Positions 2,554 to 11,669 of a stretch of 35,808 bases of DNA are shown here, in pieces. The stretch is taken from the NCBI RefSeq assembly GCF_030604225.1, contig NZ_JAUVWH010000011.1, positions 1-35,808 on the forward strand, written 5' to 3'. Below the pieces are notes generated by a model. The model was not told the origin of the DNA and searched no databases. It saw only the letters and a list, made by a program, of their open reading frames with translations. The position numbers were made by a program, and so were the translations under genes. The DNA comes from Geoalkalibacter sp. GTDB taxonomy: Bacteria > Desulfobacterota > Desulfuromonadia > Desulfuromonadales > Geoalkalibacteraceae. Each line of letters starts with the position of its first letter. Positions within the stretch are counted from its first letter, which is position 1.

Positions 2554-3402
2554 TCAGATTTTTTCCTCGGATTCGACGTTCTTGAACTTGATTTCCTCGG
2601 CGTCCGAGCGCCGGATCACCTCGACGGCAAAGGGCGGCGCCTTGGGCGGCTGAGGCGCCCTGGGGCGCGGCCGATACACCTGGGCGGGGGGCGCCTCGAC
2701 CTGGGCCACTTGGGGCGCGAGCTGGGGCGCGACCTCGTCGAGGGGATTGCGCAACGCCAGCTGCACGCTGCCCTGGCTGGTCTGCAAGGCCAGCTTTTCG
2801 GCCTGCTCGGGGCTCAGCTTCAGAGTCACGGTCTTGACGACCTTGGGCTTGCCGTCCTCATTGGTGGTTTCCTGGGCGATGGCCAGCACCTCGATACGCT
2901 CCAGCAGGGTGCGCGCCTTGACGGCCTTGTTGCCCTGGTCGTCGATGGCAATGACGTCGACGTAGGTATTGGGCAGAATGAAGCCGCCCACGCCGATGAC
3001 CTCATCGACGCGGATGGCCATGGCCCGATGGCCCGGCGCGATGGCGGCCACCAGCCCGGGACCCGAACCGGGCGCGGCCAGATCGGCGGCCAGGACCGGA
3101 TGACCGGCGCGCAGCCGCGCCACGGCCACGCGCCCTTCGCAGGCGGCGACGTCGCTGAACGATCCCTGGGGCACGCCGCCCCGGGGCCAGTCCGCGAGGG
3201 TCAGGTTGGCCGCGCTCAGGGGTGTGCCCACTTCGAGATCGCGCGCGGCGATGACCACTCTGGCCGTGGGAACGGCCTCCTGCTGTATGACCGCCACCTC
3301 GGGCGGGGTCTGCCGGGACAGCCAGCGATTGGCCAGCACCACGGCGAAGAGCCCGGAAAGAATGGCCACGGACAGGGCTAGAACGGCGCCGTACTTCTTC
3401 AT
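2554..3402 (-). CDS. cpaB: Flp pilus assembly protein CpaB/RcpC
   Basis: This 282-aa protein has one N-terminal membrane segment (about residues 4-27, YGAVLALSVAILSGLFAVVL). A SAF/antifreeze-like domain follows (ARVVIAARDLEVGTPLSAANL, about 48-110). A second conserved block (GHRAMAIRVDEVIGVGGFILPNTYVDVIAI, about 123-155) is typical of CpaB/RcpC. The C-terminal tail is rich in proline and alanine (PQLAPQVAQVEAPPAQVYRPRPRAPQPPKAPP) and probably unstructured. CpaB proteins lie in the periplasm and are thought to work with the secretin at the outer membrane and peptidoglycan. The start at 3402 has a GGAGG site. It lies between the prepilin peptidase gene and the secretin gene on the same strand, so it is operonic. 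Confidence 0.92.
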   Translation of the reverse strand: MKKYGAVLALSVAILSGLFAVVLANRWLSRQTPPEVAVIQQEAVPTARVVIAARDLEVGTPLSAANLTLADWPRGGVPQGSFSDVAACEGRVAVARLRAGHPVLAADLAAPGSGPGLVAAIAPGHRAMAIRVDEVIGVGGFILPNTYVDVIAIDDQGNKAVKARTLLERIEVLAIAQETTNEDGKPKVVKTVTLKLSPEQAEKLALQTSQGSVQLALRNPLDEVAPQLAPQVAQVEAPPAQVYRPRPRAPQPPKAPPFAVEVIRRSDAEEIKFKNVESEEKI

Positions 3403-3433: not shown

Positions 3434-4042
3434 TCACAAGGATTTGAGCAGGGTAAAGATGCTGCCCCACTGCACGTAACTGAAAAAACCAAAGGCGATG
3501 GCCGAGGCGTAGGGAAAACGCAGCTTCTCCGTCGTCGCGGGCCGCAGCACCTCGACGTCCCGGGTGCCGGCGAAGGCCATCAGTGCGCGCCCCGCTCCAG
3601 CGGCCTTCTCTAAAAAATTCCGAGAAAACAGATAATGCAGAATGGAAAAGAGCCCACCGAAGAGGGCAATGTAAAGAAACACCTGCACAATGGTCACTGG
3701 CCCTAGCAGGGCGCCCAGAGCGGCAAGGGCCTTGACGTCCCCGCCGCCCATGAGATAGGGGATCAGGAGCAGGGAAAAACCGACGATACAACCGACGAGC
3801 GCTGTACCAAATCCTGCCAACCCAGCGACCCAGAGATTATAAATTGCGCCCGCCCCAAAAAGAATTAAGTTGAGAATGTTTGGTATTTTCGAGAAGAACG
3901 TGTCAATGAAACAAGCAGCTGCAAGATAATAGGCAGGGACTACCAATAAAAAAGCCGTGTTCTCTAAAGCAAGAAGCAGTGAAATGGCAACGCCTGCAAA
4001 TCCAATTAAGAGGCTAGAAAAATTAATATGCAAAATCGCCAT
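3434..4042 (-). CDS. cpaA: prepilin peptidase CpaA/TadV (family A24)
   Basis: This 202-aa protein is almost wholly membrane-embedded, with about six hydrophobic segments. The two aspartates of A24 prepilin peptidases are visible: one in AACFIDTFFSKIPN (about residue 47) and one in the GGGDVKALAALG motif (about residue 99). It lacks the N-methylase domain of PilD, which is normal for the short TadV/CpaA type. It should cleave the Flp pilin and TadE-type pseudopilins at the cytoplasmic face of the inner membrane. It begins 31 bases after the flp stop codon. The N-terminal third (about 3800-4042) is markedly AT-rich compared with the rest of the operon (see findings). Confidence 0.92.
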   Translation of the reverse strand: MAILHINFSSLLIGFAGVAISLLLALENTAFLLVVPAYYLAAACFIDTFFSKIPNILNLILFGAGAIYNLWVAGLAGFGTALVGCIVGFSLLLIPYLMGGGDVKALAALGALLGPVTIVQVFLYIALFGGLFSILHYLFSRNFLEKAAGAGRALMAFAGTRDVEVLRPATTEKLRFPYASAIAFGFFSYVQWGSIFTLLKSL

Positions 4043-4073: not shown

Positions 4074-4262
4074 CTAGCCACCTGCCGGGGGAGCGCCTGC
4101 CGGGAGCGCTTTTTCAACAGCATCAAAGGCATCATTCAATTTCGGACCGATCAAAAGAATAGTGGCAACACAAACAGCAATAATCCCAGCCACCAACACA
4201 CCATACTCAACCGCCGACGCACCTTCCTCATCCTTCCACAGTTGCTTCATTTTCTCGATCAT
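4074..4262 (-). CDS. flp: Flp-type major pilin
   Basis: The ATG at 4262 is used (62 aa), not the longer 75-aa frame of the ORF track. It is preceded by AAAGGAGAC, while the upstream extension has no ribosome site. The protein reads MIEKMKQLWKDEEG followed by ASAVEYGVLVAGIIAVCVATILLIG. That is the class IVb Flp signature: short basic leader, cleavage after Gly, Glu at +5, Tyr at +6, then a hydrophobic helix. The mature pilin would be about 48 residues, ending in a Gly/Pro/Ala-rich tail (LPAGAPPAGG). It is the filament subunit of the Tad pilus, which mediates surface adhesion. It is the second gene of the presumed sigma-54 operon, after the degenerate GGDEF gene. Confidence 0.93.
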   Translation of the reverse strand: MIEKMKQLWKDEEGASAVEYGVLVAGIIAVCVATILLIGPKLNDAFDAVEKALPAGAPPAGG

Positions 4263-4350
4263 GACAGTCTCCTTTGTCGTTTTCGGATGGAACCCCTCCA
4301 CCCCAGGTTTGTATTGGTACCCCGCAAGCCCTCCTCACGGGAACCTTGGT

Positions 4351-4812
4351 TCATGCCCCTCCGGGCAGGAATGCTGCATTTGTCATCCCGACCGCGCCGA
4401 AAACGGGATCCGTGGCGAAGGCCCGGGAGAGCAGTTGCTCGGGGGTCGTGGCGTCGTCGGGATAGACGGCCAGGCCGAGCTCAAACCGCTCGCTCTTGAT
4501 GCTGCACAGAAACAGCAGGCGCTTTCTGACGGTCCGGGCGCCGACCAGATCGGTTTCCGGCAAAAGTATCCCCACCCTCTGCACGGAGGCCTCCCAAGAG
4601 GGCAGCGCCAGGGCGTAATCGGACGTCCGCAGTTCGGCGCGGATCTCGGCGGCCATATCCACCGCGTGCAATCCGGCTATGGCCAGGCCGAACACGGAGA
4701 AAAACCGGTTGTGCCGCTCGCTGCGCTCTTTTTCGTAGGCCAACAGGTCCCGAAAATTCCAGTACCGGCAGTCCTGTCGTTCTATGGGGAATTTCCGTCG
4801 GCACGGCGGCAT
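4351..4812 (-). CDS. degenerate GGDEF-like protein, first gene of the tad operon
   Basis: This 153-aa soluble protein is recognisable as a GGDEF-type fold from its pattern. NFRDLLAYEKERSERHNRFFSVFGLAI matches the start of diguanylate cyclase domains (Tyr-Asn-x-Arg...Glu-x-x-Arg-x-x-Arg). IRAELRTSDYALAL and VGILLPETDLVGARTVRKRL match the segments flanking the active site. The GGDEF loop itself is missing and replaced by PSWEASVQRVG-type sequence, so catalysis is very unlikely. A binding or regulatory role is an inference. The ATG at 4812 lies about 44 bases after the expected transcription start of the sigma-54 promoter. An alternative ATG at 4862 lies upstream of that start site and in another frame. 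The ribosome site (CAGGTA) is weak. Confidence 0.72.
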   Translation of the reverse strand: MPPCRRKFPIERQDCRYWNFRDLLAYEKERSERHNRFFSVFGLAIAGLHAVDMAAEIRAELRTSDYALALPSWEASVQRVGILLPETDLVGARTVRKRLLFLCSIKSERFELGLAVYPDDATTPEQLLSRAFATDPVFGAVGMTNAAFLPGGA

Positions 4813-4866: not shown

Positions 4867-4882
4867 AGCAACGCCCGTGCCC
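4867..4882 (-). promoter_or_regulatory. sigma-54 promoter of the tad/flp operon
   Basis: The minus strand reads GGGCACG-GGCG-TTGCT. It matches the sigma-54 consensus TGGCACG-N4-TTGCW at every position except the first T. Expected transcription start is near 4856, upstream of the GGDEF-like gene and flp. The adjacent gene encodes a sigma-54 activator, which supports the call. Confidence 0.82.
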
Positions 4883-4981: not shown

Positions 4982-5020
4982 TGTGACAGATGACAACCCT
5001 GGCATGACAGGCGTGTCACA
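4982..5020. promoter_or_regulatory. probable enhancer (UAS) for the sigma-54 activator
   Basis: An outer inverted repeat TGTGACA ... TGTCACA (4982-4988 and 5014-5020) encloses two more TGACA half sites (4991-4995 and 5005-5009). One pair forms TGACA-N4-TGTCA. The cluster lies 100-150 bases upstream of the sigma-54 promoter, the usual distance for an enhancer-binding protein. That the PilZ-AAA+-Fis regulator at 5101-6399 binds here is inference. Confidence 0.6.
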
Positions 5021-5039: not shown

Positions 5040-5072
5040 AAAAAAAAACGCCTCACTCCGAGGAGCAAGGCG
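5040..5072 (-). terminator. intrinsic terminator of the sigma-54 activator gene
   Basis: On the minus strand CGCCTTGCTC-CTCG-GAGTGAGGCG forms a hairpin (CGCCT/AGGCG outer stem, wobble pairs, CTC/GAG inner stem) followed directly by a run of T residues. It starts about 28 bases after the stop codon of the activator gene and isolates it from the tad operon downstream. Confidence 0.85.
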
Positions 5073-5100
5073 CGGCGAAATAAGACGGACTTGAGGAGAT

Positions 5101-6399
5101 TCAGGCTTGGGGCGTGGAGTGCGGCAGGGCGGCCTCGGGGTATTGCTCGAGTTTTCTGAGCAAGGTGCGGTAGGAGATCCCGAGCTGAACGGCGGCGCGG
5201 GTTCGGTTTTGACCGCACATGTCCAGGGCCTTGATGATCAGCGCCTGCTCGATGCGCGCGGTGAGGCTGGTGGTGATCTCGGGCAGGGAACTCGCGCCGA
5301 GATCGAGATCGGCGCCCAGGCCCACGGCCTGAAGGACGGCGGTCATGGCCGGCGTGGGCGGGGCGGGCGCCTCCACCGGGCCGATGAATTTACCCATCAG
5401 GGCCGTCTGCTTCATGTAATTTTCCAGCTCGCGAACGTTGCCCGGCCAGGAGTAGTTGCCGAGGATCTCGAGATCTGCGGCGCCAAGGGTCCGGCTGGGA
5501 CGCCCGAACTGCTCACCGTAGGTCGTGAGGAAATAATTGGCGAGGAGCATCAGGTCTTCCCGGCGCTCGCGCAGGGGCGGCAGGTGGATGGGCATTTCGC
5601 AGAGGCGATAGAAGAGGTCGCGGCGGAAGCTGCCCTCACGCACCGCTTGTTCCAGATCGCGGTTGGTGGTGGCGATGATGCCGGCCTTGACCGGCACGGG
5701 CTTGGAGCCGCCGACGGGGATGAACTGCTTGTCTTCCAGGACGCTTAGGAGCTTGGCCTGGAGATGGGGGTGGATTTCCGAAATCTCGTCGAGGAGGATG
5801 GTCCCCTCGCCGGCCAGACGGAAATAACCCGGCGCCGAAGCCTTGGCATCGGTGAAGGCGCCCTTTTCATGGCCAAAGAGTTCGCTTTCGAACAAGGAAT
5901 CGGGAATGCTCGGACAGTTGACGCGAATGAAGGGATGCTGCGCGCCGCGACAGACCTCATGGATCAGCTTGGCGAGAACGTTCTTCCCGGTGCCGGTTTC
6001 CCCGCGAATGAGAATATTGAGGCCGGACCGGCAGACCTGGTTGAGCAGAAACTTGATTTCGAGAATGGCGGGAGAGACGCCGACCATGGGCGGCCCGCAG
6101 AGCAGCAGGGTTTTTTCTTCCAGCTCGACGCCGAGGGTCTGGCAGCCCTGGCGCAAGGCCTTGCGACGGATGGTGCCGATGCCGAGTTCATAGGTCTTGT
6201 TCGCGCCGAAGGACAGGCTCAAGAAGAGCTGCCGGGCGGAACCCAGGTCGACCCCCTCGGGAAGCTTGAGGAGCAACCCCGCCGGACTGGCATTGAGAAG
6301 CTGGGCGGGAAAGCATTCCGCCCGGTTCTCGACAGGACTTACAAAAAGCGGCAGGCGCAAGGCCTCCCTGCGGTGGCAGCGTCGGTCATCCTGATTCAT
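5101..6399 (-). CDS. PilZ-AAA+-Fis sigma-54-dependent transcription activator
   Basis: This 432-aa regulator has three parts. Residues 1 to about 100 look like a PilZ domain: an arginine cluster RRCHRR at 6-11 and NASPAG at 36-41, which fit the RxxxR and (D/N)xSxxG c-di-GMP-binding motifs. Residues about 105-335 are the sigma-54 AAA+ core: Walker A GETGTGKN (133-140), ESELFGHEKGAFTDA with a GAFTDA variant of the GAFTGA loop (180-185), Walker B GTILLDE (199-205), and FRRDLFYRL and WPGNVRELEN. Residues about 382-420 are a Fis-type helix-turn-helix (NRTRAAVQLGISYRTLLRKL). There is no receiver domain, so control by c-di-GMP rather than phosphorylation is likely (inference). The nearby enhancer and sigma-54 promoter make the tad operon its probable target. 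Confidence 0.9.
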   Translation of the reverse strand: MNQDDRRCHRREALRLPLFVSPVENRAECFPAQLLNASPAGLLLKLPEGVDLGSARQLFLSLSFGANKTYELGIGTIRRKALRQGCQTLGVELEEKTLLLCGPPMVGVSPAILEIKFLLNQVCRSGLNILIRGETGTGKNVLAKLIHEVCRGAQHPFIRVNCPSIPDSLFESELFGHEKGAFTDAKASAPGYFRLAGEGTILLDEISEIHPHLQAKLLSVLEDKQFIPVGGSKPVPVKAGIIATTNRDLEQAVREGSFRRDLFYRLCEMPIHLPPLRERREDLMLLANYFLTTYGEQFGRPSRTLGAADLEILGNYSWPGNVRELENYMKQTALMGKFIGPVEAPAPPTPAMTAVLQAVGLGADLDLGASSLPEITTSLTARIEQALIIKALDMCGQNRTRAAVQLGISYRTLLRKLEQYPEAALPHSTPQA

Positions 6400-7544: not shown

Positions 7545-8840
7545 TCAGCCGCCGTAGCCGTAGAACCAGCGCGGCAGCAGCAGCACGGCGTCGGGCCAGA
7601 AGGTCAGCAGCAGCAAAATCGCGAGCTGAATGAGCACGAATGGCAGCACCGCGCGCGACACGTAGAGCACGCCCTTGTCGACCATGGCGCCGGAGATGTA
7701 GAGACTCACCCCGAGGGGCGGCGTGCAGTAGCCGATGCCGAGATTGATGGTCATGAGCAGGCCGAAATGCAGGGTGTCGACGCCAAACTGCTTGAGCAGG
7801 GGCAGAAAGATGGGGGTGAGGATGAGGGTGGCGGAGATGATGTCCATGAACATGCCGATGACCAGCAAGAGCACGTTCACCGCCAACAGAAACACCCATT
7901 GGGACTGGATGTTGGACACCACGGCGTCGGCGATCTTGGTGGGAATCTGCTCGAAGGTCAGATATTCGCCGAACACCGAGGCCCCGGCGACGATCACCAG
8001 CAGGGTGGCCGAGGTCACCGCCGAGGACACCACCACCTTCTTCACGTCGCTAAATTTCATGTCGCGGTGGATCACCAACTCGACGAAGAAAGCATAGAAG
8101 CAGGCCACCACCGCCGCCTCGTTGGCGGTGAAAAAGCCCGAGTAGATCCCGCCGAAGATCAGCACCGGAAGCAGCAGGGCCCAGATGCTTTCGCGCAGCA
8201 CCGCCGCGACCTCGCGCAGGGTGGGCTTGGGCTGCGTCGGCACGCCCTGGCGGCGGCAGACCAGCCAGGCGTAGAGGGACATGGCGCCCATGATCATGAA
8301 CCCCGGAAGAAAGCCGGTGAGAAACAGGGCTTCGAGGGAGTCATTGGTGACCATGGCGTAGAGGATCATGGCGATGGACGGCGGAATGATCACGCCGAGA
8401 ATCGGCGCGGTGGTCATGACGCCGACGCTGAAGCGCTCCTGGTAGCCGTGCTGCACCAGGGCCGGAATCATGAAGCCGCCGATGGCCACCACCGTGGCCA
8501 CGGTGGAGCCGGAAATGGCGCCGAAGAAGCCGCAGGCGAGAATCCCCGCCATGGCCAGGCCGCCGGGCAGAAAGCCGACCAGCACGTTGGCGGTCTTGAC
8601 CAGTTTCTGCACGATGGTGCCGGTGGTCATGATGTTGCCGCACAGCACGAAGAACAGCACCACGATGAGGGCGAACTTGTCCATGCTGCGGTAGAGCACT
8701 TCCACCGCCACCAAGGGGTCGATGCCGGCGATGACGCTCAGGCCGAACAGCCCGGTGAAAAACAGCGCCATGAACACCGGCACGGTGGCGGCGAGACAGC
8801 CGAGAAGCAGGGCGAGGATGATGAAGTGACTGGCTTCCAT
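7545..8840 (-). CDS. dctM: TRAP transporter large permease (DctM)
   Basis: This 431-aa integral membrane protein has about 12 hydrophobic segments. It carries the DctM family patterns ACGFFGAISGSTVATVVAIGGFMIP (about residues 105-129) and APILGVIIPPSIAMILYAMVT (about 145-166). Its length is normal for the family. Together with the small DctQ subunit it forms the Na+- or H+-driven permease that takes substrate from the periplasmic DctP protein. It starts six bases after the dctQ stop and is followed after nine bases by the usp gene. The substrate cannot be predicted from the sequence; carboxylates are the most common TRAP cargo. Confidence 0.94.
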   Translation of the reverse strand: MEASHFIILALLLGCLAATVPVFMALFFTGLFGLSVIAGIDPLVAVEVLYRSMDKFALIVVLFFVLCGNIMTTGTIVQKLVKTANVLVGFLPGGLAMAGILACGFFGAISGSTVATVVAIGGFMIPALVQHGYQERFSVGVMTTAPILGVIIPPSIAMILYAMVTNDSLEALFLTGFLPGFMIMGAMSLYAWLVCRRQGVPTQPKPTLREVAAVLRESIWALLLPVLIFGGIYSGFFTANEAAVVACFYAFFVELVIHRDMKFSDVKKVVVSSAVTSATLLVIVAGASVFGEYLTFEQIPTKIADAVVSNIQSQWVFLLAVNVLLLVIGMFMDIISATLILTPIFLPLLKQFGVDTLHFGLLMTINLGIGYCTPPLGVSLYISGAMVDKGVLYVSRAVLPFVLIQLAILLLLTFWPDAVLLLPRWFYGYGG

Positions 8841-8846
8841 GGCGGC

Positions 8847-9344
8847 CTAATCCCCCGAGGGGCCTCCCTGCCAGTCTTCCACCATGACGATGAGGGTGCG
8901 GATGAACATGAGCACGCCGATCACCGGCAGCACCGCGTAGAATTTCCATTCGGGAATGCGCAGGGTGGAGGTCAGGGCGAATTCGTCGGCATGGACCATG
9001 GCGGTCATGCGCCAGCCGAGCCACACCATGAGCCCGGCGAAGAACAGCGCCGCCAGGTGGCTGAGCAGGGTCACGCCGCGCTTGAACAGGGGAAAGAGCT
9101 GCGGCAGGGCGTCGATGCGGATCAGGGAGCGGCTGCGCACCGCGGCGCTGGCGCCGACGTAGGTGGTGAAGAAGATCACCTTGCGCACCACTTCGTCGGA
9201 CCAGAACAGGTTGACGTGGGTGAACTTGCGCAGAAACACGTTGGCCAGGGCGGCGACCAGGGCCAGCATCACGGCGATGAACAGGCTCCACTCCTCGACG
9301 AAGGCGAGGGTCTTATCGATGACTCGGGCGGTTTTTTTCCACAT
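8847..9344 (-). CDS. dctQ: TRAP transporter small permease (DctQ)
   Basis: This 165-aa protein has four predicted membrane helices, starting MWKKTARVIDKTLAFVEEWSLF. The conserved pattern NVFLRKFTHVNLFWSDEVVRKVIFFTTYVGA resembles the R-(Y/F)-x-x-x...W-(S/A)-(D/E)-E signature of DctQ proteins, with WSDEV clear. DctQ and DctM together form the membrane unit of the TRAP transporter. It is encoded immediately upstream of dctM. A GC-rich hairpin flanked by T-runs separates it from dctP1 upstream. That hairpin would lower permease expression relative to the abundant binding proteins (inference). Confidence 0.92.
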   Translation of the reverse strand: MWKKTARVIDKTLAFVEEWSLFIAVMLALVAALANVFLRKFTHVNLFWSDEVVRKVIFFTTYVGASAAVRSRSLIRIDALPQLFPLFKRGVTLLSHLAALFFAGLMVWLGWRMTAMVHADEFALTSTLRIPEWKFYAVLPVIGVLMFIRTLIVMVEDWQGGPSGD

Positions 9345-9417: not shown

Positions 9418-10455
9418 TTAGTCGCCCAGGGTGGTGCGAACTTTTTCCAGATAGTCGGCGCCGATGCGCTCGCCCCACTTGGCCAGCACCGGCTCGGCCT
9501 GCTTGATCAGCTGGGCGCGGTCCTCGTCGGCCAGGGGATAGAACTCGACGCCGTTGGCCTTGGCGGCGTCAATCTGCTCATCCTGCTGACGGCGGGTATT
9601 AACGCGCGAGGCGGCGCTTTCCTCCGCGATGGTTTCAAGGAGCACCTGCTGCAGCTCGGGCGGCAGGCCGTCGAACCAGCGCTTGTTCATCAGGTGCACG
9701 AAGAGACCCTGGGCGTAGTTGACCTGGGTGAAGTGCTTGGCGATGTCGAACTTCTTGGTCAGGTTGCAGACGATGGGGGTGTGGTCGAGGCCGCTGATCA
9801 CGCCGGTTTGCAGGGCTTGGGGCACGTCGGGCCAGGGCATGACGGTGAACTTCAAGCCCCAGGCGCGATAGATATCGGTATTGACCGGCGCCTCGGCGAT
9901 ACGGAAATTGACCCGCCCGGCATCGGCCAGGGTTTTGACCGGCGTGGTGGTGGCCCAGCCGTAGGGGCCGTAGCCGGTGATGTCGGTGACCATCACGCCT
10001 TGGCGCAGGGCGCTGTCGCGGAAGGGCTCCCAGAGCTCGGGAGTGGCGCGGAACTTGTCGAGCTTGTCGAAGGTATCGACCACATAGGGCAGATTGACCA
10101 CGCCCAGCTGATCGGCAAGATTGGCGGCGGCCACCGAGGAGCAGAGCATGCCCTGCACCGCGCCGAGGCGCAGTTTCTGCAGCACGTCGCGCTCGCCGCC
10201 AAGCTGCGCCAGGGGGCGGAAATCGACGTAGAGCCGGCCGTTGGAGCGCTCCCACACCTTGTCGCGGATGCGGTAGCCGACGCCGATGCCGTCGATGCCG
10301 GGATGGGACACGTTGGAGAGAATGTAGGTGTACTTGGCCCCCGAGGGATCAAAGGCCGGCCGCCAGGCCGCCAGGGGATCGTCCTGCGCTTGACCCATGG
10401 CCGGCACCTGGGCCAGCATCATCACCGCCAAAACCGCTGCTGAAAACTTTTTCAC
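9418..10455 (-). CDS. dctP: TRAP transporter substrate-binding protein DctP (copy 1)
   Basis: The track starts at a TTG at 10473. The GTG at 10455 is a better start because AAAGGAG lies nine bases upstream inside the longer frame. It gives 345 aa beginning with a signal peptide (MKKFSAAVLAVMMLAQVPAMGQA). The DctP family fold is recognisable in LAQLGGERDVLQKLRLGAV, the NFRIAEAPVNTDIYRAWG segment carrying the conserved substrate-contacting arginine, and TGVISGLDH. It captures the substrate in the periplasm. It is a close paralogue of the gene upstream, with long identical blocks such as PLAAWRPAFDPSGA and LYVDFRPLAQLGGERDVLQK. The two could bind related but different ligands, or be recent duplicates. 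Confidence 0.93.
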   Translation of the reverse strand: MKKFSAAVLAVMMLAQVPAMGQAQDDPLAAWRPAFDPSGAKYTYILSNVSHPGIDGIGVGYRIRDKVWERSNGRLYVDFRPLAQLGGERDVLQKLRLGAVQGMLCSSVAAANLADQLGVVNLPYVVDTFDKLDKFRATPELWEPFRDSALRQGVMVTDITGYGPYGWATTTPVKTLADAGRVNFRIAEAPVNTDIYRAWGLKFTVMPWPDVPQALQTGVISGLDHTPIVCNLTKKFDIAKHFTQVNYAQGLFVHLMNKRWFDGLPPELQQVLLETIAEESAASRVNTRRQQDEQIDAAKANGVEFYPLADEDRAQLIKQAEPVLAKWGERIGADYLEKVRTTLGD

Positions 10456-10526
10456 CGTCGAACTCCTTTCCAAGGTCGCCTGATTGCTGACGGAAGTGCG
10501 CCTCAGAATAAAACAAACCGCGTTTT

Positions 10527-10556: not shown

Positions 10557-11600
10557 TCAATCCCCCAACTGGGCACGGACTTTCTCGAAATAATCGCTGC
10601 CGATGCGCTCGGACCATTTCTCATAGACCGGCGCGGCCAACTCCTTGAGGCGCTCGCGGTCGGCGGCGGGGAAGTCCACGAAGGTCACCCCGGCTTCGCG
10701 GGCGCGGGCGGTTTCCTCCTCGATCTGGATGCGGCCCAGGCGCCGGGCCTCGGCGCTTTCCTCCTGAATGGTCTCCACCAGGATCTTTTGCAGATCCTCG
10801 GGCAGCTGCTCCAGCCAGCGGCGGTTGATCATGTGGATGTAGAGGCCCTGGGCGTAGCTGAGGGGGGTGAAATAGCGCGCCACGTCGAACTTGCGGGTGA
10901 TGCTGCACACGATCAGCGTGTGATCGAGGCCGTCGATGACGCCGGTTTGCAGGGCCTGATGCACGTCGGGCCAGGGCATGACGGTGAACTTAAAACCCCA
11001 GGCGCGGTAGAGGTCGGTGTTGACCGGCGCTTCGGCGATGCGAAAGTTGACCTTGCCGGCATCGGGGAGGCTCGCCACCGGGGTGGTGGTGGCCCAGCCG
11101 TAGGGGCCGTAGCTGGTGAAATCCACCACGGTCACGCCCTGGGCGTGGGCGGCGCCGGCGAATTCGTCGAAGAGTGCGGGAGTGTTGCGGAATTTTTCGA
11201 GCTTTTCAAAGGTGTCGATGACAAAGGGCAGATTGACGATGCCCAGGCGCGGCGAGAGGTTGGCCGCCGCCACCGAGGAACACATCATGCCGTGCACCGC
11301 GCCGAGGCGCAGCTTCTGCAGCACGTCGCGCTCGCCGCCAAGCTGCGCCAGGGGGCGGAAATCGACATACAGCCGCCCTTCGGAACGCTCCCACACCTTG
11401 TCGCGAATGCGGTAGCCGACGCCGATGCCGGCGATGGCCGGGTGATCGATGTTGGACAGGAGGTAAGTGTACTGGGCACCGCTGGGATCGAAGGCGGGAC
11501 GCCAGGCGGCCAGGGGATCGTCCTGGGCCGAGGCGCAGGGAACAAGCATCACGAGGGCGACGAGCAGGGACAGACCGATGAGTGCCGCGTTTTTCAGCAT
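10557..11600 (-). CDS. dctP: TRAP transporter substrate-binding protein DctP (copy 2)
   Basis: The ATG at 11600 (MLKNAALIGLSLLVALVMLVPCASA signal peptide) has AAAGGAG seven bases upstream. The track's start six bases further up is a TTG that falls next to this ribosome site. The 347-aa protein shares long identical stretches with copy 1 (for example DDPLAAWRPAFDPSGA, YGPYGWATTTPV, FRIAEAPVNTD, KFTVMPWPDV). The C-terminal half has diverged more. This gene is first in the TRAP operon and is preceded by a good sigma-70 promoter. Two adjacent binding proteins served by one DctQM pair suggests a broadened substrate range. Substrates are unknown. Confidence 0.93.
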   Translation of the reverse strand: MLKNAALIGLSLLVALVMLVPCASAQDDPLAAWRPAFDPSGAQYTYLLSNIDHPAIAGIGVGYRIRDKVWERSEGRLYVDFRPLAQLGGERDVLQKLRLGAVHGMMCSSVAAANLSPRLGIVNLPFVIDTFEKLEKFRNTPALFDEFAGAAHAQGVTVVDFTSYGPYGWATTTPVASLPDAGKVNFRIAEAPVNTDLYRAWGFKFTVMPWPDVHQALQTGVIDGLDHTLIVCSITRKFDVARYFTPLSYAQGLYIHMINRRWLEQLPEDLQKILVETIQEESAEARRLGRIQIEEETARAREAGVTFVDFPAADRERLKELAAPVYEKWSERIGSDYFEKVRAQLGD

Positions 11601-11669
11601 GATCAACTCCTTTGCCGACAGGCGGACGAGGGGAGAAAAAAGCCGGAATCACCGCAATTTCAAGGGGAA

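Follow-up and report, generated by a model that had tools for sequence, protein, structure and literature searches.

At the head of a Tad pilus operon in Geoalkalibacter sp., we found a short gene whose product is a GGDEF-derived protein that, judging from its sequence, has lost catalysis and retained all four positions of the c-di-GMP-binding I-site. The gene (4351-4812, minus strand; 153 aa) lies in a 35,808-bp stretch of contig NZ_JAUVWH010000011.1, hereafter the window, and adjoins a gene for a sigma54-dependent activator carrying a PilZ domain. Our preferred reading, which we hold to be about as likely as not, is that the protein acts on this activator as a stand-alone c-di-GMP receptor within a feedback loop.

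An orthologue with 60-61% identity to the 153-aa protein was present in another genome of the same genus (G002). Because of this orthologue and of the substitution rates between the two copies (dN 0.33 vs dS 1.08), we consider the short gene to be a real gene under purifying selection. Its restriction to one lineage and the loss of its catalytic parts could also describe a decaying gene without function, but such low dN relative to dS, an intact frame, 60% identity maintained in two species and a conserved promoter make decay highly improbable. Among 58 related genomes, only the Geoalkalibacter genome studied here and G002 harbored the gene, and a profile built from these two sequences recovered no third orthologue in the 277 genomes of the class (2/277). 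With the single 153-aa protein, neither Pfam nor NCBIfam returned a family match above cut-off, a phmmer search against the PDB yielded only a weak GGDEF match (TpbB, E = 0.13), and a scan of genome contigs gave one match, an ordinary GGDEF protein.

Profile comparisons were more informative. Using hhalign, the profile of the window and G002 pair aligned with that of 10 canonical GGDEF domains from the same genome (probability 95.9, E = 5e-9) from the helix preceding strand 1 to the last helix, and with a profile of 16 short relatives described below (probability 97.3, E = 2e-11). AlphaFold2 run on the single sequence was uninformative (pLDDT 45, no PDB match below E = 0.4). When an alignment was supplied, the mean pLDDT reached 82.4, with approximately 91-98 over residues 21-130, and the best PDB matches of the model were the GGDEF proteins 4yme, 7e6g, 5m3c and 6khu, followed by PelD. 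Since the 35 rows of this alignment, taken from viral contigs, were themselves GGDEF domains, the model supports the fold and does not constitute independent proof of it. By profile homology and predicted fold, the 153-aa protein belongs to the GGDEF superfamily, as had been proposed from recognizable flanking segments; with that alignment, structure prediction returned a GGDEF fold and no unrelated one.

The catalytic apparatus is absent. With PleD numbering fixed by matching a PleD fragment to the PDB, the metal-binding residue D327 aligned with an alanine, while N335 and D344 fell within a deletion that removes helix alpha-1, which binds metal and GTP. As originally predicted, PSWEASVQRVG (residues 71-81; codons 4570-4602, minus strand) replaces the catalytic GG(D/E)EF hairpin in the PleD alignment. 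The replacement hairpin is about five residues longer than in PleD, and its strands span residues 66-70 and 77-85 in the AlphaFold2 model. Without the loop, the metal-binding aspartates or alpha-1, the protein does not have the features of an active diguanylate cyclase, and the view that it is catalytically dead stands. The original prediction did not extend to the deletion of alpha-1, which reduces this protein further than canonical dead GGDEF domains, nor to the intact I-site positions.

These positions are R30 (codon 4723-4725), equivalent to the secondary I-site arginine R313 of PleD, R62-T-S-D65 (codons 4618-4629), equivalent to the primary RxxD I-site (R359 and D362), and R98 (codon 4519-4521), equivalent to R390, all encoded on the minus strand and assigned from the PleD alignment. 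An RxxD motif alone is insufficient, and arginines of the R313 and R390 types complete the I-site (PMC3838380). In PelD, changing any RxxD residue or the third arginine abolished c-di-GMP binding (PMC7112168), and GGDEF domains combining a degenerate A-site with an intact I-site, such as SgmT and PopA, are receptors (PMC3509222). At the sequence level, a dead A-site together with R30, R62, D65 and R98 places the window protein with PopA, PelD and SgmT.

A third relative of 149 aa (G438; L150) was then added to the profile, and 15 further short open frames appeared as the top-scoring matches. The resulting set comprised 18 short proteins, namely those of the window and G002 and 16 additional ones (L156, L182-L196). 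Sixteen of the 18 matched PF00990 directly, the exceptions being the proteins of the window and G002. Each of the 16 additional genes immediately follows a sigma54 activator gene transcribed in the same direction, and the two frames overlap in L187 and L191. A sigma54 activator was found within 1.5 kb at 13 of 13 short loci vs 4 of 100 other GGDEF loci. At most of the additional loci, genes for exopolysaccharide export come next; a check of those in L188 and L192 gave matches to Poly_export, Wzz and XrtA/PEP-CTERM-type export families. The adjacent activators at the exopolysaccharide loci lack a receiver domain, and that of L188 has no sensor domain, since its AAA+ domain starts at residue 10. 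Sigma54 sites were observed approximately 1.0-1.2 kb upstream of the short gene at many of these loci, i.e., near the start of the activator gene, and between the activator and the short gene in L156. Although identity to the other short proteins was only 20-27%, the window protein shares their characteristics: a stand-alone protein (approximately 150-177 aa), no A-site, a full I-site and an adjoining sigma54 activator. Three other candidates from the class, retrieved with the exopolysaccharide profile (L228-L230), were rejected as they are canonical or truncated GGDEF genes.

D327, D344 and the GGDEF loop were absent from all 18 short proteins, while RxxD and the R98-type arginine were invariant among them. 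All four I-site residues were found in 17 of the 18 (15/16 outside the window and G002) vs 51 of 94 other GGDEF domains (Fisher p = 0.0011) or 9 of 24 GGDEF domains of the same genome (p = 2.6e-4), p-values that ignore relatedness and concern proteins gathered with profiles containing these very residues. The two RxxD residues among the four discriminate poorly, since that motif alone occurred in 89-90 of the approximately 95 canonical GGDEF domains analyzed here. The R313- and R390-type arginines were kept in 66/94 and 61/94 of the other GGDEF domains, respectively; as both positions vary in active domains, folding does not appear to require them. This variability bears on the idea that the protein is a GGDEF relic working as a ligand-free adaptor or anti-activator, its I-site residues being kept for folding or protein contacts. 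In some known systems, sensorless sigma54 activators are indeed held by partner proteins, for instance PspF by PspA, and the window pair sits on a very long branch (3.0 changes per column in a tree of all alignment columns). Yet, the counterparts of all four c-di-GMP-binding residues of PleD have survived despite the low identity to the other short proteins, and we consider a ligand-free role improbable.

The same all-column tree placed the 18 short proteins on one side of a branch (87/96). When the degenerate columns were removed, they formed two groups, with the window pair apart from the other short proteins. The pilus and exopolysaccharide versions may thus share a common descent or may have arisen by convergence. 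Joint inheritance of the activator and the short protein from an exopolysaccharide module was unsupported by the activator tree, in which the window activator stood apart from the exopolysaccharide activators.

In the window, the neighboring gene (5101-6399, minus strand) codes for a PilZ-AAA+-Fis-type activator (Sigma54_activat, 1.3e-58; HTH_8), and its G002 counterpart (L113:10090-11418, minus strand) is 75% identical. The PilZ domain, which the original prediction had attributed to this activator, covers residues 5-98. It scored 28.9 bits in G002, above the Pfam cut-off of 22.5, which bears out the attribution, and 20.6 bits in the window, 1.9 bits below. Both activators have GAFTDA in place of the GAFTGA motif. 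NorR with this change (G266D) is no longer repressed by its sensor domain (PMC2941729), but natural GAFTDA activators exist, such as DVU2106 (PMC4641369).

Behind the stop codon of the activator gene, a strong intrinsic terminator (5048-5073, minus strand; 11-bp stem followed by T8), a palindrome, a sigma54 site, the short gene and flp follow in this order. The palindrome TGACAGGCGTGTCA (5005-5018) is the single TGACAN4TGTCA of the window and a candidate upstream activating sequence for the activator; it is also single in the G002 locus (L113:9997-10010), where the surrounding block is conserved. The candidate -24/-12 promoter GGGCACGGGCGTTGCT (4867-4882, minus strand) is the only match to the sigma54 consensus TGGCACNNNNNTTGCW with one mismatch or fewer in the 35.8 kb, and is conserved in G002 (L113:9859-9874). 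The two elements keep a similar spacing there in an otherwise diverged region. The interval between the short gene and flp showed no terminator, and the window gave no Rfam match to a c-di-GMP riboswitch, which would have been another route of control. Given the terminator, palindrome and sigma54 site upstream, the short gene would be the first gene of a sigma54 unit, in agreement with its earlier description as promoter-proximal, and from this layout the adjacent PilZ activator very likely drives the unit. Downstream on the minus strand are the genes for the Flp pilin (4074-4301; Flp_Fap, 9.5e-11), for which alignment with G002 indicates a conserved start probably at the ATG at 4262, an A24 prepilin peptidase (3434-4042; Peptidase_A24, 1.6e-12), RcpC/CpaB (2554-3402; RcpC, 2.1e-30) and a Tad secretin of the RcpA/CpaC type (938-2503; Secretin, 1.6e-46; T2SS-T3SS_pil_N).

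Such a position, first in the operon and directly before flp, also raises the prospect of a c-di-GMP receptor for the pilus machine itself, for example for the Tad assembly ATPase or a regulator, as PelD is for Pel synthesis. PelD is among the structural matches and acts post-translationally on a polysaccharide machine (PMC7112168). Tad loci were traced across the order with RcpC as the marker. Among 136 genomes, 40 had a Tad locus, and only the window genome and G002 had the short gene; of 37 Tad loci inspected, only that of G002 showed the short gene and the activator, which makes the pair a lineage-specific addition to a Tad operon. The original prediction had raised the question of whether the short protein always accompanies flp, and had named its absence beside flp in relatives as evidence against it. 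It is absent there, and a general Tad subunit was accordingly rejected. A sigma54 site just upstream of flp was present in only 3 of 31 compared Tad loci (L128, L129, L132), one of them a perfect site, TGGCACTTATATTGC; the short gene and the PilZ activator were absent from the stretch inspected at these three loci. Since flp is usually found without the short gene, the protein is more likely to work with the activator than with the pilus machine. Furthermore, the occurrence of short relatives at exopolysaccharide loci indicates that the constant partner is the sigma54 activator and not the exported structure. Taken with the finding that no other genome of the order with a Tad locus has the gene, this makes a receptor for the pilus machine unlikely. 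The protein had been suggested to be a partner of either the activator or the pilus machine, and it is the activator that the data favor, while a general companionship with flp did not hold, being limited to two genomes.

A nucleotide-sensing partner for the activator, as had also been suggested, fits the dead A-site, the full I-site, a promoter that looks like the activator's target and the association with sigma54 activators. If the 153-aa protein is such a receptor, a c-di-GMP dimer could glue two copies together in the manner of the PleD I-site, with R62, D65 and R98 contributed by one copy and R30 by the second. The liganded, or the unliganded, form would then contact the activator and tune its ATPase activity or oligomerization, so that c-di-GMP would be read twice, in cis by the PilZ domain and in trans by the receptor. 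As the receptor would be made from the activator's own target promoter, the feedback loop would be closed: the activator would control the receptor along with the Flp pilus genes, and the receptor would in turn act on the activator, with either sign of feedback being compatible with the scheme. Where the activator of an exopolysaccharide locus lacks a sensor domain of its own, the obvious candidate for that function is the short GGDEF-like protein. The argument from adjacency is weaker at the Tad locus because the activator there has its own PilZ domain and is a separate transcription unit. A broader reading, which we advance only tentatively and with some doubt, is that of a recurrent two-gene module in which a sigma54 activator, often sensorless, is accompanied by a stand-alone dead GGDEF domain as a detachable c-di-GMP sensor. 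This module would be plugged before operons for surface structures, exopolysaccharide in many genomes and the Tad pilus here.

There are precedents both for dead GGDEF receptors and for sigma54 activators under c-di-GMP control. PelD of Pseudomonas aeruginosa and Bacillus cereus resembles the window protein in its dead GGDEF fold, its RxxD motif and third arginine and its place among the top PDB matches. However, PelD is membrane-bound, contains a GAF domain and acts on the Pel machine, whereas the window protein consists of one soluble-looking domain (153 aa) and is encoded next to a sigma54 activator. PopA and SgmT likewise kept the I-site after losing the A-site (PMC3509222), but they are multi-domain proteins with a role in localization and have no companion sigma54 activator gene. 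FleQ and BerB provide examples of c-di-GMP control of sigma54 activators for surface structures; in both, the activator itself senses the ligand, while here a separate GGDEF-derived protein would be combined with a PilZ domain on the activator. The XrtA/PEP-CTERM loci with PrsK/PrsR are also sigma54-linked exopolysaccharide loci, and short GGDEF genes occur near XrtA-type export genes, but PrsR is a response regulator and the activators adjoining the short genes have no receiver domain. The 2006 description of XrtA/PEP-CTERM exopolysaccharide loci did not mention GGDEF proteins (PMC1569441). In the open-access literature searched, we found no description of a stand-alone minimal GGDEF protein that accompanies a sigma54 activator. 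A recognizable sensor domain is missing from many sigma54 activators. If the proposal is correct, a small and easily missed GGDEF-derived neighbor would provide them in trans with an input from c-di-GMP, and the way in which many environmental bacteria regulate their exopolysaccharide and Tad pilus operons would become directly testable.

Other genes in these regions also caught our attention. In L188 (10509-11390, minus strand), and as similar ORFs in L183, L186, L187, L191 and L195, we observed genes whose products, approximately 280-335 aa long, combine a receiver domain with a region matching GGDEF weakly; at these exopolysaccharide loci, two GGDEF-derived proteins would thus flank the activators. 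In G438, the second gene upstream of the activator and short gene codes for a PilZ protein (L156:6318-6680, plus strand; Pfam 1.8e-9), bringing PilZ and a short protein again near one activator. On contig C153 (L233:5906-8317, minus strand), the window genome also encodes a receiver-GAF-GGDEF protein in which the A-site is degenerate (AAGDDF) while RxxD and the third arginine are retained; similar frames recur across the class. Finally, two adjacent paralogous genes of the window (9418-10473 and 10557-11606, minus strand) code for secreted-looking proteins, which we take to resemble TRAP solute-binding proteins, and membrane transporter genes (7545-9344, minus strand) adjoin this pair.
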